64,000 nt of DNA from assembly GCF_000384115.1 (NCBI RefSeq), contig NZ_KB913029.1, positions 2,827,057-2,891,056 of the forward strand, given 5' to 3'. This DNA comes from Sporichthya polymorpha DSM 43042 (GTDB lineage Bacteria > Actinomycetota > Actinomycetes > Sporichthyales > Sporichthyaceae). Both the position numbers and the translations under genes were made by a program. Below, piece after piece: positions 11,579-56,910 of this stretch. The first letter of the stretch is position 1. Each line of letters begins with the position of its first letter. The notes below the pieces were generated by a model that did not search any database, had not been told where the DNA came from, and saw only the letters and a program-made list of their open reading frames with translations.

Positions 11579-11650
11579 GCGCTGAACGCGGCGCCCCGCC
11601 GCGCGGGTGAGCTGGGTTGTGGGTGGCGCCGCCCAGAATGCGATTGGAGC

Positions 11651-11680
11651 ACACTATGTAGAACATAGACACTATAGAAC
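11651..11680 (+). promoter_or_regulatory. Repeat operator of the toxin-antitoxin pair
   Basis: An A+T-rich patch directly before the toxin gene holds two direct copies of ACACTAT(GT)AGAAC, at 11651-11664 and 11669-11680. The first copy also lies within the perfect palindrome CTATGT-AGA-ACATAG (11654-11668). TATAGA at 11673-11678 is a good -10. Overlapping repeats and a -10 are what an autoregulated toxin-antitoxin promoter should look like; binding by the downstream HTH antitoxin is inferred. Confidence 0.6.
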
Positions 11681-11696
11681 GCTGGGGTTATGCTGG

Positions 11697-12065
11697 GTGG
11701 AGCGGTGGGAAGTTCGTCTGTTGCCCGAGGTCGAGGACTGGTTCGAGCAGTTGGAGCCGGATCTCGCCGATCGGGTGGCCGGTGCAATCGCGCGGTTGGC
11801 GGAAGAGGGGCCCGGGTGCGGGCGGCCGACGGTTGACAGCATCAAGGGTTCCAAGGTTCACAACTTGAAGGAGTTGCGTCCGGTCACCGGAAGGCGGAGC
11901 GCGCTGCGGATCCTGTTCGCTTTCGATCCGGCGCGACGAGCCGTCCTGTTGGTCGCCGGAGACAAGGTCAACAATTGGAGCAAGTGGTATCGGGACGCGA
12001 TCCCGACGGCTGAACGACGTCACGCAGCTTGGCTCGCTGGAGAGTACGGAGACGACGATGAGTGA
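11697..12065 (+). CDS. HigB/RelE-like toxin (phage Gp49-like family)
   Basis: 122 residues from GTG 11697. Sequence features of the HigB/Gp49 branch of the RelE/ParE superfamily are VERWEVRLLPEVEDWFEQL at the start, a central SKVHNLKELRP, RSALRILFAFDPARRAVLL, then GDKVNNWSKWYRDAIPTAE. Members are ribosome-dependent mRNA nucleases neutralised by a partner antitoxin. The frame is open further upstream, but the operator patch at 11651-11680 lies there, so the GTG behind it is the sensible start even though no strong ribosome site precedes it. It overlaps the antitoxin gene by 8 bp. Its codon use is less G+C-biased than neighbouring genes, suggesting acquisition by transfer. Confidence 0.8.
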   Translation: MERWEVRLLPEVEDWFEQLEPDLADRVAGAIARLAEEGPGCGRPTVDSIKGSKVHNLKELRPVTGRRSALRILFAFDPARRAVLLVAGDKVNNWSKWYRDAIPTAERRHAAWLAGEYGDDDE

Positions 12066-12417
12066 CACGAGCGGCAAGAAGCGCCCGGCTCGCGCGTGGT
12101 CTGCCGTGCGAGAGGAGGCCCTGCGCCGAGGTCAGATCACGGAGGAAGGCGTCGCCCGGGCCCGCGACGTGCACGTTGCGCTGGAGAAGGCATACGCGTT
12201 GCGCGAGGTCCGCAGGTTGCGCGCCGTGACTCAGGAGACCTTGGCCACTCAGATGAAGGTCTCCCAGCCCCGTATTTCCGCCATCGAACGTGGTGAGCTC
12301 TCTCGGACCGAGATCGGGACGTTGAAGGCCTACGTGGAGGCGCTCGGCGGCAAGCTGCGGGTTGTCGCCGACTTCGAGGACCGAACGGTCACTTTGGACG
12401 ACGAAGCCTCCGTGTGA
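12058..12417 (+). CDS. HigA-like XRE-family antitoxin
   Basis: 119 residues. A basic N-terminal region (WSAVREEALRRGQITEEG) is followed by an XRE helix-turn-helix at about residues 55-105 (LRAVTQETLATQMKVSQPRI, then SAIERGELSRTEIGTLKAYV). The last third (GGKLRVVADFEDRTVTL) is typical of antitoxins partnered with Gp49-like toxins. It would bind the toxin and repress the shared promoter through the repeats at 11651-11680. The toxin-first gene order and the 8-bp overlap are those of higBA loci. Confidence 0.85.
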   Translation: MSDTSGKKRPARAWSAVREEALRRGQITEEGVARARDVHVALEKAYALREVRRLRAVTQETLATQMKVSQPRISAIERGELSRTEIGTLKAYVEALGGKLRVVADFEDRTVTLDDEASV

Positions 12418-14638: not shown

Positions 14639-14692
14639 CCGTAACGTCAGCGGAATCGAGCGCTATAGCGCGCGATCTCGCTGACGTTACGG
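14639..14692. terminator. Bidirectional terminator hairpin between purU and the sensor kinase gene
   Basis: Perfect 14-bp inverted repeat CCGTAACGTCAGCG (14639-14652) and its complement (14679-14692); the inner sequence is itself nearly palindromic around CGCTATAGCG. The left arm begins right after the purU stop, and the right arm contains the TAA stop of the convergent kinase gene (14687-14689). It can therefore end transcripts from both sides. Confidence 0.8.
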
Positions 14693-16126
14693 CCCGCGCT
14701 CCGTCAACGGAAGCCGGACGATGAAGCGGGTGTCGCCGGGGACGGAGGAGACGGTGAGATCGCCGCCGTGGCGTTCGACGACGATGCGGTAGGAGATGTC
14801 GAGGCCGAGCCCGCTGCCCTGACCGACGGGCTTGGTGGTGAAGAACGGCTGGAAGATCTTGAGCTGGAGTTCGGGCGGGACGCCGGGGCCGGTGTCGCAG
14901 ATCTCCACCTTGACGAAGTCGTTGTCCCGACAGCTGCGGACCGTCAGGGTCCCCTCGCCGTTCATCGCCTGCAGCGCGTTGTCGATCAGGTTCGTCCAGA
15001 CCTGATTGACCTCGGCCGGGTAGACCGGCACCGGGGGGAGGTCGCGGTCGAGCTCCTTGACGATCTGGATGCCCTCGGCCTTGCCGGCCATCAGCATCAG
15101 GGTGCTCTTCAGCCCGAGATGGATGTCGACGCGCTCGTAGGGGGTGCGGTCCATGTGCGAGTACTGCTTGGCGGCGCCGACGAGGGTGGAGATGCGCGTG
15201 ACGGAGTCGGTGATCTCGGTCAGCAGCGTCTCGGTCTCCAGCGCGGAGGCGAGCCAGTGCAGGGCCGGTTCGAGCATCTCGGCCGGCACACCGCCCTGGA
15301 TCCGAGCCAGACAGGAGTTGGACGTGCCGGCGGCGGCGAAGATCGGCGCGAGCTGCCAGCCGCTGGTGACGCCACGCTCGTCCATCCAGTCGGAGAGTTC
15401 GTCCTCGCGTTCGGACGCCTCCAGCGCCGTGAGGTCCGGCGCCTTCGCGGCGAGGGTGACGGCCTCCTCCTGGGTCTCGACGAGCAGCCGCAGCACGTCG
15501 CGGTCGATCTGGTCGTCCGCGAGCTTGGCCAGCTTGTGCCTCATCGTGCCGACGCGCTCGCGCAGCCCGGCCGTCGCGCGGACCGCGGCCGCGGCGGGGT
15601 TGTTGAGCTCGTGCGTGAGGCCGGCGGAGAGAGCGCCGAGCGCGAGCAGTTGCTCGCGTCGTCCGACCCGCTCCTGGCTGTTGCGCATCCCGATGAACAT
15701 GCCGTCGAGCAGGTGCAGCGCCATGGGAAACCAGGTCTGCATCAGTTCGACCAGCGTCGCGGCGCGCATCACGAGGACGCGGGCGTCCTGGACCACGTGG
15801 ACCGACACCGTGTACCGCTGGGCGGTCTCGTCCCGGACGAAGGCGCGCATCGCGCCGGCGTACGCGCCGACCGTGCTGCTGCGGTTCACCTCGACCTCGT
15901 CGCGGCCGACGCGCTGGCACAGGCGGATCTCGCCGTCGAGCAGGAGGAGGAAGACCTCGGCGGGGTCGCCCTCGCGCAGCAGGGTCTCGCCCGCGGACGC
16001 CTCGGCCACCCAGGCGCGTTCGGTGACCCAGGCGAGCTGTTCCTCGGTGAGGTGCTCGAAGAGGAACAGGTCGCCCACCTGATCGGGCGTCAGGCGGACA
16101 CCCGTGTCGATCACGATGTCGGTCAT
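14687..16126 (-). CDS. Sensor histidine kinase with N-terminal cyclic-nucleotide-binding domain
   Basis: 479 residues, soluble, with no membrane helices. Residues about 15-135 form a CRP-like cyclic-nucleotide-binding domain (LFEHLTEEQLAWVTERA, GETLLREGDPAEVFLLLLDG). The kinase core has the phospho-acceptor His172 in GLTHELNNPAAA, the N box (NQVWTNLIDNALQAM), the G1 box (DTGPGVPPEL) and the G2 box (GQGSGLGLDIS). The start overlaps by 4 bp (ATGA) the stop of the fused response regulator, so the two are coupled and very likely a cognate pair. The likely input is a ligand bound by the CNB domain, and the output the flavoprotein partner. Confidence 0.9.
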   Translation of the reverse strand: MTDIVIDTGVRLTPDQVGDLFLFEHLTEEQLAWVTERAWVAEASAGETLLREGDPAEVFLLLLDGEIRLCQRVGRDEVEVNRSSTVGAYAGAMRAFVRDETAQRYTVSVHVVQDARVLVMRAATLVELMQTWFPMALHLLDGMFIGMRNSQERVGRREQLLALGALSAGLTHELNNPAAAAVRATAGLRERVGTMRHKLAKLADDQIDRDVLRLLVETQEEAVTLAAKAPDLTALEASEREDELSDWMDERGVTSGWQLAPIFAAAGTSNSCLARIQGGVPAEMLEPALHWLASALETETLLTEITDSVTRISTLVGAAKQYSHMDRTPYERVDIHLGLKSTLMLMAGKAEGIQIVKELDRDLPPVPVYPAEVNQVWTNLIDNALQAMNGEGTLTVRSCRDNDFVKVEICDTGPGVPPELQLKIFQPFFTTKPVGQGSGLGLDISYRIVVERHGGDLTVSSVPGDTRFIVRLPLTERGP

Positions 16127-17841
16127 GGTCCCGCCAGAAATCGATGGGCGAGGGTGACTGCCATCGCGCCCTCGCCGACGGCGGAGGCGACGCGTTTCAC
16201 CGACTCGCTGCGGACGTCGCCCGCGACGAAGACGCCGGGGACGCTGGACTCGAGGTGCCACGGGTCGCGGTCGAGCGACCAGCCGGCGGGACGCTGACCG
16301 TCGACGAGGAGGTCCGGCCCGGTGAGGAGGAAACCGCGGGGATCGCGGGCGATGGTCCCGTCGAGCCAGTCCGTGCGCGGCTGCGCGCCGATGAAGACGA
16401 AGCAGTGGCTGGCCTCGACCTCCTCGGCGACGCCGCTCTCGGTGCAGCGCAGGGTGAGGGACTCCAGGTGGCCCTCGCCGTGGACCTGCTCGACGACGGT
16501 GTGCGTCCGGACGCTGACGTTCTCGATCGCCCGGAGTTGCTCGATCAGGTAGTGCGACATGCTCGCCTCGAGCCCGGCTCCACGGACGACGAGCGTGACG
16601 GACTTCGCGCGGGCGGAGAAGAAGACCGCCGCCTGCCCCGCGGAGTTGGCGCCCCCGACGATGTACACGTCGCGGCCCTCGCAGCTCGCGGCCTCGGTGG
16701 AGGCCGAGCCGTAGTAGACGCCGCGGCCGGTCAGCTCGCGCGCACCGGGGCAGTCGAGTTCGCGGTAGTAGACGCCGGTGGCGAGAATGACGGTGTGGGC
16801 GCCGACCTCGACCCCGTCGCTGAGGCCGATGGACAGCGCCGAGCCCCGCGGGGCCAGACTTGCGGCGTGCCGCGCGGTCAGGATCTCGGTCCCGAACTTC
16901 ACGGCCTGCCGCCGGGCCCGATCCGCGAGCTGCGCACCTGACACTCCGTCAGGGAAGCCCAGGTAGTTCTCGATCCGCGAGGACTGGCCGGCCTGTCCGC
17001 CCGTCGCGCGCTTTTCCACCAGCAGGGTCCGGAGGCCCTCGCTCGCGCCGTAGACGGCGGCCCCCAGCCCGGCCGGACCGCCGCCGATGACGACGAGGTC
17101 GTAGAACTCGTCGACCGGTGCGGTCGCGAGGCCGACCGCGCTCGCCAGGTCGGCCATCGCGGGCTCGACCAGCGCCCGTCCGTCCGGCGTCACCACGACG
17201 GGCAGGGTCGCGCCGTCCTGTCCGGCGGCGGCGAGGATCCGCTCACCCTCGGGGGAGTCGGCGGAGTACCACCGGTAGGGGACCGCGTTGCGGGCCAAGA
17301 AGTCGCGCGCGGTGAACGACGGCTGCGACCAGCGGTGGCCGACGACCTTCACCTCGGTGGCCGGCGCGTCCGGCTCGCGGGAGTAGCTCTCCAGCATCGC
17401 GTCGAGGACCGGGTAGAGCTTCTCCTCCGGCGGGTCCCACGGCTTGAGCAGGTAGTGGTCGACGTCGACGACGTTGATCGCCGCGATCGCGGCGTCGGTG
17501 TCGGCGTATGCGGTGAGCAGGGCACGCCGGGCGCGGGGGAACAGGTCCATCGCCTGTTCCAGGAACTCGATGCCGCTCATCTCCGGCATCCGGTAGTCGG
17601 CGAGCAGGACGGCCACGCGGCCGCCGCGAAGCTTCAGCTCGCGTAATGCCGCGAGCGCGTCCGCGCCGGACTCGGCCCGCACGATCCGGTGCCGCTCCCC
17701 GTACTTCCGGCGCAGGTCGCGGGCGACGGCACGCGAAACTGACGGGTCGTCGTCGATGGTCAGGATGACGGGGCGATCGGCAGCGCTGTCGGTACTCTCG
17801 GTGGTTCCCTCGGCCGAGGGTTGCGTCGTCACGCCGGTCAT
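16123..17841 (-). CDS. Response regulator fused to thioredoxin-reductase-like flavoprotein
   Basis: 572 residues in three parts. Residues 20-150 are a complete receiver (TIDDDPSVS, phospho-acceptor Asp82 in LLADYRMPEMSG, Thr in ALLTAYAD, Lys in LLKPWDP). Residues about 160-235 look like a glutaredoxin fold whose CxxC is replaced (GHRWSQPSFTARDFL, then TLPVVVTPDGR). Residues 245-572 match thioredoxin reductase with FAD (VVIGGGPAGLGAAVYGASEG) and NADPH (VYIVGGANSAGQAAVFF) sites. The redox-active CxxC is absent: the region reads STEAASCEG, with one Cys. It probably works as an NADPH-dependent, phosphorylation-controlled flavoenzyme or redox sensor rather than a classical reductase. Confidence 0.9.
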   Translation of the reverse strand: MTGVTTQPSAEGTTESTDSAADRPVILTIDDDPSVSRAVARDLRRKYGERHRIVRAESGADALAALRELKLRGGRVAVLLADYRMPEMSGIEFLEQAMDLFPRARRALLTAYADTDAAIAAINVVDVDHYLLKPWDPPEEKLYPVLDAMLESYSREPDAPATEVKVVGHRWSQPSFTARDFLARNAVPYRWYSADSPEGERILAAAGQDGATLPVVVTPDGRALVEPAMADLASAVGLATAPVDEFYDLVVIGGGPAGLGAAVYGASEGLRTLLVEKRATGGQAGQSSRIENYLGFPDGVSGAQLADRARRQAVKFGTEILTARHAASLAPRGSALSIGLSDGVEVGAHTVILATGVYYRELDCPGARELTGRGVYYGSASTEAASCEGRDVYIVGGANSAGQAAVFFSARAKSVTLVVRGAGLEASMSHYLIEQLRAIENVSVRTHTVVEQVHGEGHLESLTLRCTESGVAEEVEASHCFVFIGAQPRTDWLDGTIARDPRGFLLTGPDLLVDGQRPAGWSLDRDPWHLESSVPGVFVAGDVRSESVKRVASAVGEGAMAVTLAHRFLAGP

Positions 17842-17843
17842 TC

Positions 17844-18092
17844 TTACGCGCGCGCGCCGGAAATGTCGGCGGCGAACCCGGCGATGTGGTCGATCGCGGT
17901 GTTACGTGCGCCCTCGGCGGGAGTGCGGTCCCGGCGGACCGTCAGCAGGAGTCCGCCCGGCAGGGGCGCGAGCACCGCGAGGACGAGGGGGGTCGGGTCG
18001 GCGTCCTCATCCGTCCCTACCTCCTCTCCCGCCTCGGCAGTTTCACTGGGGGTGTCACCCTTTCTGGTGGCGAAAGCCGCCTGACCGCCCAC
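17844..18092 (-). CDS. Small hypothetical protein upstream of the fused response regulator
   Basis: Up to 82 residues from GTG 18092 (or 90 from GTG 18116). I do not recognise it. The last 50 codons (DADPTPLVLAVLAPLPGGLL, then a charged RRDRTPAEGARN stretch) have almost exclusively G/C third positions, as real genes here do. The first 30 codons do not, and they run through a fragment of the dispersed palindrome (18049-18066). The stop lies 2 bp before the ATG of the response regulator, suggesting coupling. It could be a remnant of a longer gene with a decayed or replaced front end. No convincing start codon or ribosome site is visible. Confidence 0.35.
   Translation of the reverse strand: MGGQAAFATRKGDTPSETAEAGEEVGTDEDADPTPLVLAVLAPLPGGLLLTVRRDRTPAEGARNTAIDHIAGFAADISGARA
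18049..18066. repeat. Half copy of the dispersed palindrome
   Basis: GGGGTGTCACCCTTTCTG repeats one arm of the long palindromes at 24616-24659 and 57977-58032, without the partner arm. It lies 33 bp beyond the ilvD terminator hairpin, again near a gene end, so it may be a decayed third member of the same repeat family. Confidence 0.5.
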
Positions 18093-18098
18093 CCCAGG

Positions 18099-18173
18099 CG
18101 GGATGACGTCCCACACGACCCGGGTGTCAGCCCTCGTACGGGCCGACAGGGCCCTGTGCGGGACGTCATCCCG
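18099..18173. terminator. Long hairpin downstream of ilvD
   Basis: CGGGATGACGTCCCACAC (18099-18116) pairs with 18156-18173 (17 of 18 positions). An inner stem (GTCAGCCC with GGGCCGAC) extends the fold around a short TCGTAC loop. It begins 12 bp after the ilvD stop on the minus strand and is its likely transcription terminator. Confidence 0.7.
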
Positions 18174-18184
18174 CAGAGGCAGGG

Positions 18185-50958: not shown

Positions 50959-52146
50959 CTAGCTGTCGCCGCCGTCGAGGCGCAGGGTCCGCAGCACCTG
51001 ACGCGCGGTCTCGCCGCCCGTCTCCTCGGCGATGTTCAGCGCCGTGGGGACGTCGAGGTCGTCGAGCAGCGCGGCGACCGCCGCCTCACCGGCCGCGCCG
51101 TTGCCGCCGGGCTTCCCGGCGGCGGAGTAGAGCTGGTCGAGCCGGGCGTCGGCAGCGGCGAGGTCGTCGTGCGAGAACTCCCACGGGTTCGCCCACGGCC
51201 GGTCGAGCAGGTACAGCCGGATGCCGGCCGCGCGGTACTTCGTCAGCAGGTCCGCGACCAGGACGAGGTTGCCGGTCGACTTGGCCATCTTCTCGCCGTG
51301 GATGTTGACCGTCCCGACGGCGAGACGGCCCCGCGCGAGGTGGCCGATGCGGGAGGCGGCCTCCCCGATCGCGATCTGGTAGGCGTGGTGCGGGAACACG
51401 AGGTCGGCGCCGCCGGCGAGGACGTCGAAGCCCGGGCCCAGGTGGGCGTGCGCCATCGCGGCGCACTCGGCGTGCCAGCCCGGTCGGCCCCAGCCCCACG
51501 GGCTCGGCCACGCGGGGTGGTTCTCGTCGGAGGGTCGCCAGACGGCGACGTCGAACGGGTCGTCCTTGAGCGGGGCGTCCGGGTCGTTGCCGAACTCGCG
51601 GAACAGCGTGACCGCCTGGTCGCGGTCGATGCCGAACTCCTCCGGCACGTGCGCCCCGCGGAAGTACACGAAGCCCTCGCGGTGGTAGGCCTTCTTGTTG
51701 TGCAGCAGGGCCGCGGCCAGCGCGATCACGTGCGCGACGTGGTGGCGGGCGCGCGGGTCGAACGTCGGCTTCGCGACGCGCAGGGCGTTCATGTCCTGCT
51801 CGAACAGGAACTGCTGGGAGAGCGCGAACTCGTCGTAGTTCCGGCCCCGCGTCGCCGCGGCGGCGGTGAGGACGTCGTCGACGTCGGTGACGTTGCGGCA
51901 GACCTCGACGTCGACCCCGGTCAGGCCCATCACGGTCGCGCAGACGTCGGCCCAGACGAACGTGGCCGCGTGACCGAGGTGGGTGACGTCGTAGGGGGTG
52001 ATCCCGCAGACGTACAGCCGTCCCGGCGAGAGCATCGGCAGGCGCACCCCGCCGAGGCGCAGCACACGGTCGACGGGCTGCGGCGGTATCGCGGTGCGGC
52101 CGGCCATGCCGACGACGCCGGACCCGAGTCTGGTGATCCCTGCCAT
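50959..52146 (-). CDS. mshC: MshC/cysteinyl-tRNA-synthetase-like ligase
   Basis: 395 residues from ATG 52146. HIGH-type motif in GITPYDVTHLGHAATF with the zinc-ligand Cys just before (YVCG), NVTDVDDVL, GRPGWHAECAAMAHAHLG (Cys/His), FPHHAYQIAIGEAAS and GEKMAKSTGNLVLV (KMSKS type). It lacks the anticodon-binding extension of CysS, as MshC does; MshC joins cysteine to GlcN-inositol in mycothiol synthesis. The middle (residues about 120-190, including ALSQQFLFEQDMNALRVAKP, HNKKAYHREGFVYF) differs from the MshC sequences I know, so it could be a divergent orthologue or a distinct paralogue. Divergent from def. Confidence 0.72.
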   Translation of the reverse strand: MAGITRLGSGVVGMAGRTAIPPQPVDRVLRLGGVRLPMLSPGRLYVCGITPYDVTHLGHAATFVWADVCATVMGLTGVDVEVCRNVTDVDDVLTAAAATRGRNYDEFALSQQFLFEQDMNALRVAKPTFDPRARHHVAHVIALAAALLHNKKAYHREGFVYFRGAHVPEEFGIDRDQAVTLFREFGNDPDAPLKDDPFDVAVWRPSDENHPAWPSPWGWGRPGWHAECAAMAHAHLGPGFDVLAGGADLVFPHHAYQIAIGEAASRIGHLARGRLAVGTVNIHGEKMAKSTGNLVLVADLLTKYRAAGIRLYLLDRPWANPWEFSHDDLAAADARLDQLYSAAGKPGGNGAAGEAAVAALLDDLDVPTALNIAEETGGETARQVLRTLRLDGGDS

Positions 52147-52186
52147 GACCCCATCTTGCCAACTGCCGCCGAATAACATCGCGGGC

Positions 52187-53675: not shown

Positions 53676-54410
53676 CTACGTGAACGAAGCGGGCGAAGTG
53701 GACAGGCTCGGTTGCGCCGGAACGGCGTCCGCGCGGTCCGGCATCCGGAGCTCGAAGCGACGCAGCTCCGGACCGGGTCCGCCCTCGAACCGCTGCTTCA
53801 GCCGGTCGCGCAGCTCGAGCCGCCCGCCGGGGCGGCCACCGAGGTCGCCGCCGAGGTCGCCGTCGAGACGCTTCAGGATCGTCCCGGGGATCTCGGCCGC
53901 CGTGGGCACGGTCGTGATCCGGTCGGCCGCGGCGGTGTCGCTGCCCTTCGCGAGGGTCCCGGCCACCATCACCTCGTCGCCGGTCGCGAGGTCGGCGGTG
54001 TCCTTCCGAACGGTCCAGGTGCCGTCGTCGTTCTTCGTCACGCTCCAGCCCGCGCCGCCGACGGCGGTGTCGGAGCTCCGGGTCCAGGAGCGCCGGTAGC
54101 CGTCCTCGCTGACGACGGTGAGGCGGTCGGCGTCGACGGATTCGATCGTGCCGATCTGGGTCAGGCGCGTGAGGAAGCCGCCCTTGCCGTCGGAGACGAC
54201 GGACTCGCTGTGCAGCAGCCCGCCGAAACCGTGGGCGCGCTGGCCGGGCGTGGCCGTGGCCTCGGCGCTGGCACTGGCACTGGCGCCGGGGCTCGGCGAG
54301 CCGGTCGCGTCGGTGTCGGTGCTCGGCTGGCCGGCCGCGATGGCGGCGCCGCCGCCGGCGACGAGGGCGACCGCGGCGAGGCCGACGGTCAGGGTGGTCG
54401 GGATCTTCAT
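53676..54410 (-). CDS. Secreted protein divergent from a two-component system
   Basis: 244 residues. Signal peptide-like start MKIPTTLTVGLAAVALVAGG, then a Ser/Ala/Thr-rich linker (SPSPGASASASAEATATPGQ). The folded part has three small beta units (IGTIESVDADRLTVVSEDGY, SVTKNDDGTWTVRKDTADLA, GDEVMVAGTLAKGSDTAAAD) resembling DUF5666-like beta-barrel repeats, and a charged C-terminal tail with Gly/Arg/Leu repeats (LGGDLGGRPGGRLELRDRLK). It is divergent from the OmpR-type regulator at 54621 across the CACAG array, so it is a likely target or sensor partner of that system. Function is unknown. Confidence 0.72.
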   Translation of the reverse strand: MKIPTTLTVGLAAVALVAGGGAAIAAGQPSTDTDATGSPSPGASASASAEATATPGQRAHGFGGLLHSESVVSDGKGGFLTRLTQIGTIESVDADRLTVVSEDGYRRSWTRSSDTAVGGAGWSVTKNDDGTWTVRKDTADLATGDEVMVAGTLAKGSDTAAADRITTVPTAAEIPGTILKRLDGDLGGDLGGRPGGRLELRDRLKQRFEGGPGPELRRFELRMPDRADAVPAQPSLSTSPASFT

Positions 54411-54560
54411 CAGGACTCCAGGAAGGGGGACGGGACGGTGTGGTCGAGGTGTGGATCCAGGCGTGGACCCGGCATGCCTCCAGAGTCGCGACGAAACTTG
54501 GAGCGACCTTGTGCGTGGCTGGGCTGCGCAGATGAGCTCGGCGCCGGGGGTGGCGGGTTC

Positions 54561-54598
54561 CACAGGAGCGGCACAGAAATGCCACAGACTCGGAACAG
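54561..54598 (+). promoter_or_regulatory. 11-bp-phased CACAG repeats before the second OmpR-type regulator gene
   Basis: CACAG starts at 54561, 54572 and 54583, and AACAG at 54594, exactly 11 bp apart. Spacing to the following ATG (54621) is 22 bp, almost the same as in the array at 26450-26499 before the paralogue. Phased direct repeats are what OmpR/PhoB-type dimers bind. The array also faces the divergent secreted-protein gene at 54410. Confidence 0.72.
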
Positions 54599-54620
54599 AG
54601 CGATGGGCAGAATGATGATC

Positions 54621-55367
54621 ATGCCGACCTCCGACAGCAGCACGGACTCCCGCCCTCAGCTCCGGCGTGCGGACGGGTCGCCGGTCCGCGTGCTCGTCGT
54701 CGACGACGAGCCGAGCCTGACCGATCTGCTCTCGATGGCGCTGCGCTACGAGGGCTGGGAGATTCGGACGGCGGGGGACGGGGCGACGGCGATGAAGGCC
54801 GCCCGCGAGTTCCGGCCCGACGCGGTCGTGCTCGATGTGATGCTGCCCGACGTCGACGGCCTGGAGCTGCTGCGCCGGCTGCGCGCGGACACCCCGGACA
54901 TCCCGGTGCTGTTCCTGACCGCGCGCGACGCCGTCGAGGACCGCATCGCGGGCCTGACCGCGGGCGGCGACGACTACGTCACCAAGCCGTTCAGCCTGGA
55001 GGAGGTCGTCGCGCGGCTGCGGGGGCTGATCCGCCGGACGCGCGCGGCCGACGCCCGCAACGAGGCGCTCCTGGTGGTCGGCGACCTCACGCTCGACGAG
55101 GACAGCCACGAGGTCCGTCGCGGTGGCGAGGAGATCAATCTGACCGCCACCGAGTACGAACTGCTGCGCTACCTGATGCGCAACCCGCGCCGGGTGCTGT
55201 CGAAGGCGCAGATCCTCGACCGGGTCTGGAACTACGACTTCGGCGGACAGGCGAACGTCGTCGAGCTGTACATCTCCTACCTGCGCAAGAAGATCGACGC
55301 GGGCCGGGCGCCCATGATCCACACGCTGCGCGGGGCCGGGTACGTCCTCAAGCCGGCCGAGCAGTGA
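54621..55367 (+). CDS. OmpR/PhoB-type response regulator
   Basis: 248 residues from ATG 54621; further ATGs at 54603, 54612 and 54615 are in frame, but 54621 gives the same distance from the CACAG array as in the paralogue. Receiver (VRVLVVDDEPSLTDLLSMAL, phospho-acceptor Asp72 in VVLDVMLPDVDG, FLTARDAV, DDYVTKPFSLEE) and winged helix (LLRYLMRNPRRVLSKAQILD). Very similar in sequence to the regulator at 26512. The histidine kinase gene follows after 7 bp, making a normal two-component operon. Likely senses envelope conditions. Confidence 0.94.
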   Translation: MPTSDSSTDSRPQLRRADGSPVRVLVVDDEPSLTDLLSMALRYEGWEIRTAGDGATAMKAAREFRPDAVVLDVMLPDVDGLELLRRLRADTPDIPVLFLTARDAVEDRIAGLTAGGDDYVTKPFSLEEVVARLRGLIRRTRAADARNEALLVVGDLTLDEDSHEVRRGGEEINLTATEYELLRYLMRNPRRVLSKAQILDRVWNYDFGGQANVVELYISYLRKKIDAGRAPMIHTLRGAGYVLKPAEQ

Positions 55368-55374
55368 CCGGTCG

Positions 55375-56910
55375 ATGACACGGTTGCACCGCGCCTGGCT
55401 CACCTGGGGCCCGCGCGGGTGGAGCCTGCGCACCCGGCTGATCGCGGTGCTCCTGGCGCTGCTGTCCGTCGTCAGCCTCGTCATCGGCGTGGTCAGCGTG
55501 GTCGCGCTGCGCAGCTACCTCATCGACCAGCTCGACGAGCGGCTCGACGCCGCCGCCGACCGCACCACGCGCTCGATCGAGTCTCCGATCAACGCCCAGT
55601 TCGGCCTGTTCGGCCCGGGTCAGATCGAAGGGACGGTGATCGCGCGCGTCCGCAACGGGCAGCTCGTGACGGTCCCGCGGGTGCTGACCACCAGCGGCGA
55701 GACCGGGCAGGTCGCCGGCAACCCGTCGGTGCTGCTCACCGTCGAGCCCGAGACCGGCGCGCACACGCGCGACCTCGGCGGCGACCTCGGGAAGTACCGC
55801 GTCCGCGCGGAGTGGGTGTCGGACGGGACGATCGCCGTCACCGGCCTGCCGATGGCGAACGTGAGCGACACGGTGTTCCGGCTGGCCGCGATCATCACCG
55901 CGGTCACCCTCGCCGGGCTGGCGCTCGCGGCCGCGGCCGGCGCCGCCATCGTTCGTCTGACGCTGCGTCCGTTGCGCCGGGTGGCCGCGACGGCGACGCA
56001 GGTTGCGACGATGCCGCTCGACCGTGGTGAGGTCGCGCTCGCGGTTCGGGTCCCCGAGGAGGACACCGATCCGCGCACCGAGGTCGGCCAGGTCGGCGCG
56101 GCCATCAACAACATGCTCGGCCACGTCGGCGCTGCGCTGAATGCCCGTCAGGCGAGCGAGACGCGGGTGCGGCGCTTCGTCGCCGACGCGAGCCACGAGC
56201 TGCGGACACCGCTCGCCGCGATCCGCGGCTACGCCGAGCTGAGCCGGCGGAGCCAGGAGCCGGTGCCCGAGGACGTCGCGCACGCCATGAGCCGGGTCGA
56301 GTCGCAGGCCGTGCGCATGACCGGGCTCGTCGAGGACCTGTTGCTGCTCGCCAGCCTGGACTCCGGGCGGCCGCTGGTCCGCGAGCCCGTCGACCTGACG
56401 CAGTTGCTGATCGGCGCCATCGGCGACGCCCACGCGGCCGGACCGACCCACGTGTGGCGGCTGGACGTCCCCGAGGAGCCGGTCACCGTCATCGGCGAGA
56501 ACGCCCGGCTCACCCAGGTCGTCACGAACCTGCTCGGCAACGCGCGCGCCCACACCCCGCCGCAGACCGAGGTGACCGTCAGCCTCCGCGTCGAGGGGAC
56601 GGGGCCGGCGCAGCAGGCGGTCGTCGCCGTCAGCGACAACGGCCCGGGCATTGCGCCCGAGCTGCTGCCGGAGGTCTTCGAACGGTTCGCCCGGGGCGAC
56701 TCGTCACGGTCCCGCGCGGCCGGGAGCACCGGGCTCGGGCTGGCGATCGTGGCCGCCGTCGTGGCCGCGCACCACGGCACCGTCTCGGTGCAGAGCGTTC
56801 CGGGCAATACGGTCTTCACGGTGCGAATCCCCGTCGGCCAACTACCGCCCGTCGAGGCGGACGGGGCAGCCGTCCCCTCCGACACTCGGACGGACGTACC
56901 TACGTCTTGA
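55375..56910 (+). CDS. Membrane sensor histidine kinase
   Basis: 511 residues. Two membrane helices (LIAVLLALLSVVSLVIGVVS and LAAIITAVTLAGLALAAAAG) flank an extracytoplasmic sensor of about 130 residues with no recognisable ligand motif. HAMP follows (LRPLRRVAATATQVATMPLD), then HisKA with phospho-acceptor His274 in SHELRTPLAAIRGYAELSR, N box (RLTQVVTNLLGNARAHTP), G1 (VSDNGPGIAPELL), F box and G2 (GSTGLGLAIVAAVVAAHHG). Coupled to the regulator at 54621. A long hairpin ends the transcript at 56973-57009. It may also serve the orphan regulator at 26512. Confidence 0.95.
   Translation: MTRLHRAWLTWGPRGWSLRTRLIAVLLALLSVVSLVIGVVSVVALRSYLIDQLDERLDAAADRTTRSIESPINAQFGLFGPGQIEGTVIARVRNGQLVTVPRVLTTSGETGQVAGNPSVLLTVEPETGAHTRDLGGDLGKYRVRAEWVSDGTIAVTGLPMANVSDTVFRLAAIITAVTLAGLALAAAAGAAIVRLTLRPLRRVAATATQVATMPLDRGEVALAVRVPEEDTDPRTEVGQVGAAINNMLGHVGAALNARQASETRVRRFVADASHELRTPLAAIRGYAELSRRSQEPVPEDVAHAMSRVESQAVRMTGLVEDLLLLASLDSGRPLVREPVDLTQLLIGAIGDAHAAGPTHVWRLDVPEEPVTVIGENARLTQVVTNLLGNARAHTPPQTEVTVSLRVEGTGPAQQAVVAVSDNGPGIAPELLPEVFERFARGDSSRSRAAGSTGLGLAIVAAVVAAHHGTVSVQSVPGNTVFTVRIPVGQLPPVEADGAAVPSDTRTDVPTS

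Follow-up and report, generated by a model that had tools for sequence, protein, structure and literature searches.

A predicted two-component system of Sporichthya polymorpha with a thioredoxin reductase-like output module that lacks the CxxC motif

Introduction

Fusions of a response regulator receiver domain to a thioredoxin reductase (TrxR)-like module are on record, according to the available extracts of the reports cited here (PMC5847659), and in Streptomyces coelicolor SCO7298 is listed as a TrxB-type regulator together with its kinase, SCO7297 (PMC9739842). SCO7298 has been named trxB3, and its mRNA was found to increase with polysulfide, also in the absence of AdpA (PMC9952706), as well as with acid shock (PMC2631018). 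Like the SCO7298/SCO7297 pair, a regulator gene and a histidine kinase gene of Sporichthya polymorpha DSM 43042 stand in the order regulator-kinase and join a receiver to a TrxR-like module (PMC9739842, PMC5847659). This pair lies within a 64,000-nucleotide stretch of contig NZ_KB913029.1 (positions 2,827,057 to 2,891,056), the whole of which we call the window. In the same extracts, the SCO7298 class is called thioredoxin reductase or TrxB, whereas the regulator in the window has no CxxC motif; SCO7298 itself was placed in the group of the window regulator (clade A, see below) by annotation only. Expression studies handle a Streptomyces protein of this type as a thioredoxin reductase, and the name would mislead if the redox pair is gone.

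Two better-known flavoproteins share parts of this architecture. The low-molecular-weight (low-Mr) thioredoxin reductase TrxB has its fold and its flavin adenine dinucleotide (FAD) motifs in common with the window regulator, which differs in having no CxxC, no HRRxxFR-type clamp, an alanine at position 398, additional receiver and thioredoxin (Trx)-fold domains, and a new cysteine, C387. AhpF resembles the window regulator in carrying a Trx-fold domain and a TrxR-like module in one chain, but it has no receiver and keeps redox cysteines in both parts.

An earlier note on this DNA had placed the pair at 14687-17841, coordinates that proved correct, and had read it as a kinase coupled to a regulator with a flavoprotein output; its observations were confirmed in part and its interpretation was supported in part. 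As judged from the alignments, the module is a genuine, conserved member of the annotated class that lacks the defining redox centre of TrxR and carries a different conserved cysteine, one also found in a sister clade whose members have a sensor domain joined directly to the flavoprotein. We consider this the most useful new point about the class.

Results

Both redox domains of the regulator lack a dithiol pair

The TrxR-like module of the regulator matched TIGR01292 at 215.2 bits, below the cut-off of 343.45 bits. In an ungapped alignment at the redox site, the TrxB encoded by the same genome reads CATCDGFFFRDQDI and the window regulator reads SASTEAASCEGRDV. The CxxC positions correspond to S379 and T382 of the regulator, and C387 lies five residues beyond the second of them. 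Regulators with this module, which form clade A, were compared in 112 rows, 110 of them readable; those of L021 and L082 are gaps in the residue counts, though both gave alignments of the C387 motif. In all 110, position 379 was Ser or Ala and position 382 was Thr, Ser, His, Val or Ile, and the redox-active CxxC of low-Mr thioredoxin reductase was absent. C387 was Cys in 109 of the 110 (Thr in L131) and, counted over loci L001-L110, likewise in 109, the exception being L030, which belongs to group C. CxxC-bearing relatives have Tyr or Phe in this column. E383, at the site of the acidic residue that follows the CxxC in TrxB, was Glu in 103 of the 110 readable rows and Asp in another 3; C387 closes an E-A-x-x-C motif that is near-invariant. 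The earlier note had taken the cysteine for what was left of the CxxC, a claim that fails because both CxxC sites are replaced; by alignment, the single Cys is a new position and not a remnant.

In the second redox domain, S172 and S175 stand at the two CxxC sites. In the AlphaFold2 model, residues 164-235 follow the order strand-helix-strand-helix-strand-strand-helix, which is of the thioredoxin type; in Pfam, this middle domain gave no significant match and none to thioredoxin or glutaredoxin (Grx) (best GST_N_2, E 0.13). Where relatives have W-C-x-x-C, the window protein reads W-S-Q-P-S. Neither CxxC nor Cxx[S/T] was present in this domain, and S172 was invariant in the 40 of 40 rows read. 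The absence of a CxxC from the glutaredoxin-like domain, as described earlier, was thus upheld by the motif, with a thioredoxin-type fold suggested by the order of strands and helices in the model, and both redox domains of the module are, on the residues aligned, without a dithiol pair. The same genome encodes a single regulator of this type, plus a separate canonical TrxB with the motif CATCDG.

The receiver had been described as complete, and it is: D31, D32, D82, T110 and K133 are all present in the window regulator. Across clade A, D82 and T110 were found in 110/110 readable rows and K133 in 109/110.

FAD motifs are kept and the nucleotide site is altered

The FAD motif GxGxxG and the C-terminal GD motif are retained, with G253, G255, G541 and D542 each present in 110/112 clade A rows and G258 in 111/112; the misses are gaps or single substitutions. 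Together with the Pyr_redox_2 match (1.1e-32), this supports the earlier proposal that the output is a flavoprotein and not DNA binding. The GxGxxA nucleotide motif keeps G396 and A401, whereas its second Gly is Ala398 in 110/110 readable clade A rows; the same position is Gly in the TrxB of this genome, in 7/7 group D, 13/13 group C and 11/14 clade B sequences. The HRRxxFR-type motif forms the 2'-phosphate site (clamp) for reduced nicotinamide adenine dinucleotide phosphate (NADPH). It reads V-R-G-x-x-L in the window regulator and H-R-R-x-x-L-R in the genome's TrxB; across clade A (n=110), position 419 was V in 95, I in 12, A in 2 and L in 1, and position 421 was G in 104 and A in 6. Group D also lacks the HRRxxFR-type clamp. 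The earlier assignment of NADPH to this enzyme is not supported by these two sites, and binding of a pyridine nucleotide appears less certain than dependence on FAD.

The AlphaFold2 model of the regulator had a predicted local distance difference test (pLDDT) score of 76.9 and a predicted template modelling (pTM) score of 0.57, with the flavin-side loops 280-282 and 290-301 below 50. A Foldseek search with it gave AhpF (4o5q) as the top match. Against two conformers of one enzyme, the model fitted the flavin-reducing 5mh4 at 3.4 Å over 297 residues and the oxidised 5mjk at 6.0 Å over 284; for a second enzyme, the values were 3.3 Å over 300 (1f6m, which we take to be the flavin-reducing conformer) and 6.4 Å over 293 (1tde, presumably the oxidised, flavin-oxidising one). 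In this comparison, which was made without control models, the predicted structure resembles the flavin-reducing more than the flavin-oxidising conformers, a resemblance that would fit a disulfide-free enzyme.

The kinase has a degenerate cyclic-nucleotide-type domain

In Pfam, the kinase matched cNMP_binding (1.4e-09) and HATPase_c (1e-24), and HisKA weakly (0.012, under the cut-off). An H-box is present, and the N, G1, F and G2 stretches of the HATPase_c domain are conserved. The model of the kinase (pLDDT 81.0, pTM 0.49) shows an N-terminal domain rich in strands, a long helix carrying H172 and a helical insert at approximately 209-279; no membrane segment was seen by eye, no predictor having been used.

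The ligand residues of the cyclic-nucleotide-type domain were mapped by pairwise alignments to the domains of cyclic GMP (cGMP)- and cyclic AMP (cAMP)-dependent kinases, which were weak (best E 4e-06) but placed the residues in columns that are constant. Residue 92, at the site of the ligand Glu, was Ala in 101, Ser in 7 and Gly in 1 of 109 kinases, and never Glu, while residue 105, at the site of the ligand Arg, was Tyr in 109/109. In eight clade B sequences inspected by eye, the ligand Glu was kept and the Arg was absent. Since both canonical ligand residues have been lost from the kinases, cAMP or cGMP is an unlikely signal. The cyclic-nucleotide domain that the earlier note had assigned to the kinase is there, and the cyclic-nucleotide signal that the name implies finds no counterpart in its ligand residues.

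The pair is conserved and co-inherited

The two genes lie on the same strand, the regulator first, and share the four bases ATGA at 16123-16126, as had been noted before. The open reading frame listing also offers a longer kinase starting with GTG at 16261; we prefer the ATG at 16126. Upstream, on the same strand, is ilvD, and downstream is purU (formyltetrahydrofolate deformylase), which is convergent; since ilvD is 343 nt away and purU is convergent, the pair most likely forms a two-gene unit.

This module is widespread among actinomycetes, members of the genus Streptomyces included. When 98 genomes were searched with the regulator, the best relative was at least 55% identical over at least 528 residues in 29, and among the 113 regulator sequences compared, no two were identical over the compared stretch. 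At loci L001-L110, a kinase homologue was encoded downstream on the same strand in 109/110; the exception, L030, is the same locus as L146 and was excluded from the clade counts. The gap between the kinase and regulator matches was at most 164 nt in 107 loci, and 1.3 and 3.9 kb in L041 and L045. For clade A as a whole, the kinase was present at 111/112 loci (109/109 in the first set and two of the three added later, L131 and L132 but not L130).

Two genomes carry two copies each, and in these the kinase subtype tracks the regulator subtype and not the genome. For the kinase of L131, identity is 64% to the L132 kinase and 55% to the L029 kinase, vs 43% to that of L011 in its own genome, and the regulators run in parallel (73% and 72% vs 55%). 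Similarly, the kinase of L132 shows 64% and 59% identity in such comparisons, vs 44% to the kinase of L021 in its own genome. The presence of the kinase in 109/110 loci and the matching subtypes in two-copy genomes therefore show that the pairing is conserved and co-inherited. That the two proteins form a pair, as first proposed, is borne out; gene order and co-inheritance indicate that they are cognate.

We also considered whether the module substitutes for mycothione reductase (Mtr). This was rejected, as a strong Mtr match (E 1e-150 or better) occurred in 3/29 genomes with clade A vs 7/69 without it. In the window's own family, three of five genomes (G000, G002 and G003) had clade A and no strong Mtr match, and G001 and G004 showed the reverse; over the 98 genomes, no association supported such an exclusion. 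MshC was over its cut-off in 91/98 genomes, so mycothiol does not discriminate.

Relatives and the origin of C387

A tree of 58 chosen TrxR domains, including 24 of the 112 clade A members and leaving out L148 (group D, truncated at its N-terminus), separated A, B and C from D and TrxB by a branch with 100/100 support. Support was 100/98 for clade A, 99/98 for clade B and 88/47 for group D; with two changes needed on the tree, group C does not form a single clade. Neither redox domain has a CxxC in A, B or C, whereas both have one in group D.

Clade B (e.g. L129) is the sister clade. Like the window regulator, its members have no CxxC, and C387 is present in 13/14. They differ in having the flavoprotein joined directly to a cyclic-nucleotide-type domain and in having no receiver, and no kinase match was found in the fetched loci. 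The same sensor and effector types thus occur here in one chain. The glutaredoxin-TrxR fusions of group D (e.g. L125) have the same order of Trx-fold and TrxR domains as the window regulator but retain the TrxR CxxC (7/7) and the Grx CxxC (in the 6 rows extending that far), and have Tyr at the C387 site (7/7).

The 13 members of group C have C387 in 0/13 and all five receiver residues in 0/13. T110 is kept in 1, K133 in 2 and D82 in 7 of them; L133 and L146 retain all three Asp. There was no kinase in the 12/12 loci with room downstream (L135 has no downstream sequence). L118-L124, L133-L137 and L146, whose receivers are eroded and which lack both C387 and a nearby kinase match, are possible pseudo-receiver flavoproteins. 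On the simplest reading, both CxxC motifs were lost and C387 was gained before A, B and C split, and C387 and the kinase were then lost in C, an order limited by rooting with D and TrxB and by the long TrxB branch.

A UBP-type zinc-finger gene occurs near members of both architectures

A gene for a small zf-UBP protein was present at 53/80 loci of named genomes (the best 80 of 588 confirmed loci, biased to close relatives and Streptomyces), in 52 directly after the kinase and in L088 upstream. It also stands just upstream of the fused gene at 6/14 clade B loci (L113, L114, L115, L127, L138 and L145), and is thus found with either architecture. No zf-UBP gene adjoins the window pair, and the genome has one elsewhere, over the cut-off. 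A C-terminal di-glycine as the ligand of zf-UBP was considered and rejected, as none is common to the listed C-termini of the kinase or the regulator.

Discussion

From the gene order, domain content, residue conservation and co-inheritance described above, we infer phosphotransfer, gating, cofactor binding and a one-cysteine chemistry. The kinase would autophosphorylate on H172, regulated by its degenerate cyclic-nucleotide-type domain, the signal for which is most likely not cAMP or cGMP, and the phosphate would then pass to D82 of the regulator. Phosphorylation of D82 may gate the FAD module, probably via a large domain rotation of the kind on which low-Mr thioredoxin reductases depend. With the dithiol relay to thioredoxin apparently dismantled in the TrxR and Trx-fold domains, C387, probably together with the acidic E383, would be the new reactive group. 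Electrons would run from a reduced pyridine nucleotide via FAD to a one-cysteine centre, which may reduce, or be modified by, small sulfur species or one dedicated partner. We give an even chance to this reading, a two-component system whose output is an FAD-dependent one-cysteine flavoenzyme gated by phosphorylation and not a thioredoxin reductase. If correct, the system may be an example of a redox flavoprotein under direct control by phosphorylation, with a new cysteine that can be tested, in an organism in which deletion is routine. The polysulfide induction of sco7298, as given in the extract of that report, points to sulfane sulfur as a candidate substrate and no more than that (PMC9952706). 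A more specific version seems to us quite unlikely: a one-cysteine (E-A-x-x-C) branch of the TrxR superfamily that acts on a sulfur signal (for instance persulfides or low-molecular-weight thiol adducts) and not on thioredoxin, is switched through phosphorylation by a kinase with its cyclic-nucleotide fold remodelled for another ligand (Tyr for Arg, Ala for Glu), and is partnered by a ubiquitin-tail-binding-type zinc finger.

Several observations weigh against a phosphorylation-gated enzyme. Ala398 in all readable clade A rows and the missing NADPH clamp suggest that nucleotide binding may be weak or lost. L130 keeps D82 and C387 but has Met at K133, and its 1.2 kb of downstream sequence holds a zf-UBP gene but no kinase, while L131 retains kinase and receiver yet has Thr at 387. 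In group C, D82 is still Asp in 7/13, so the loss of receiver chemistry there is only partial. The regulator model is of moderate quality and was made without control models. Finally, no biochemistry of the class, including an enzyme test of SCO7298, was found in the open-licence literature, which makes this a weak absence; the earlier description of a known annotated class of largely undefined biochemistry agrees with the extracts at hand. Because of Ala398, the partial retention of D82 in group C and the kinase-less L130, the proposed flavoenzyme loses ground to two alternatives, a sensor and a scaffold.

The first of these is that the protein is a redox sensor and not an output enzyme, its flavin module reading the reductant or oxidant state and altering the receiver or a partner such as the zf-UBP protein. 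It would fit that neither redox domain has kept the dithiol relay, that the nucleotide motif is altered, that the genome has a separate canonical TrxB and that so many of the named loci carry a zf-UBP gene. Nevertheless, the receiver is complete and its kinase is co-inherited, which points to the receiver as an input, and the zf-UBP gene of this genome is not beside the pair; we regard a sensor as rather unlikely. Less probable still is an electron-transfer flavoenzyme like the TrxR-like ferredoxin/flavodoxin-NADP reductases (FNRs), which also lack CxxC, passing electrons from FAD directly to a protein carrier with C387 in a structural role. FNRs were among the sequence matches and the structural matches (6gar, Z 25.3; 8c16, Z 24.3), but the best FNR sequence match scored 72 bits vs 154 for TrxR, FNRs came at ranks 48 to 50 of the 50 structural entries shown, and the near-invariant Cys of two clades would be left unexplained. 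A flavin pseudo-enzyme serving only as a scaffold would fit a protein from which two redox centres and the second Rossmann Gly have gone; the FAD motifs, retained in at least 110 of 112 rows, and the new near-invariant Cys make it highly improbable. An ordinary thioredoxin reductase under two-component control, as implied by the listing of SCO7298 as a TrxB-type output (PMC9739842) and by the name trxB3 (PMC9952706), at least in the extracts of those reports, is barely credible given that CxxC occurs in 0/110 readable clade A proteins, nor in the Trx-fold domain where read, and that TIGR01292 is under its cut-off. With the reactive cysteine pair lost and one conserved cysteine at another site, thioredoxin reductase is probably a misleading name for this protein.

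Features of the locus and other genes in the window

Table 1. Positions of the regulator-kinase pair and its predicted domains and motifs in the window
Feature	Position	Strand	Remarks
Regulator gene	16123..17841	-	572 aa, ATG; receiver, Trx/Grx-fold domain without CxxC and TrxR-like flavoprotein module
Receiver domain, aa 26-138	17428..17766	-	Pfam Response_reg 3.4e-13; predicted phospho-acceptor D82
Trx/Grx-fold domain, aa 164-235	17137..17352	-	S172-x-x-S175 at C-x-x-C site of relatives; Pro214
TrxR-like FAD/nucleotide module, aa 247-571	16129..17103	-	Pyr_redox_2 1.1e-32; fold by structure search
E383-A-A-S-C387 motif (E-A-x-x-C)	16681..16695	-	S379 and T382 just before, at the lost CxxC positions
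Histidine kinase gene	14687..16126	-	479 aa; ATG start overlaps regulator stop, 4 bp
Cyclic-nucleotide-type domain, aa 43-131	15734..16000	-	Pfam; A92 at the Glu site and Y105 at the Arg site of the degenerate ligand cassette
H-box THELNNP, aa 171-177	15596..15616	-	Predicted phospho-donor H172; H172 invariant in 32/32 rows of A2
HATPase_c domain, aa 372-475	14702..15013	-	Pfam
Gap upstream of regulator, to ilvD	17842..18184	-	343 nt; presumed promoter region

Three further loci in the window were recorded. At 50962-52173 (-) is an extra cysteine-ligase-like gene for a CysS/MshC-like protein, which scored 265 bits vs an MshC cut-off of 485; an MshC that exceeds the cut-off (602.6 bits) is encoded elsewhere in the genome. 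At 11607-12417 (+), a gene for a Gp49/DUF891-type protein (Pfam Gp49, 7.9e-18) overlaps a gene for a small protein that by eye is like a helix-turn-helix antitoxin, a pair that we presume to resemble the HigB/HigA toxin-antitoxin system. By eye, 53712-56910 (+) encodes an OmpR-like regulator together with a sensor kinase of the membrane type.

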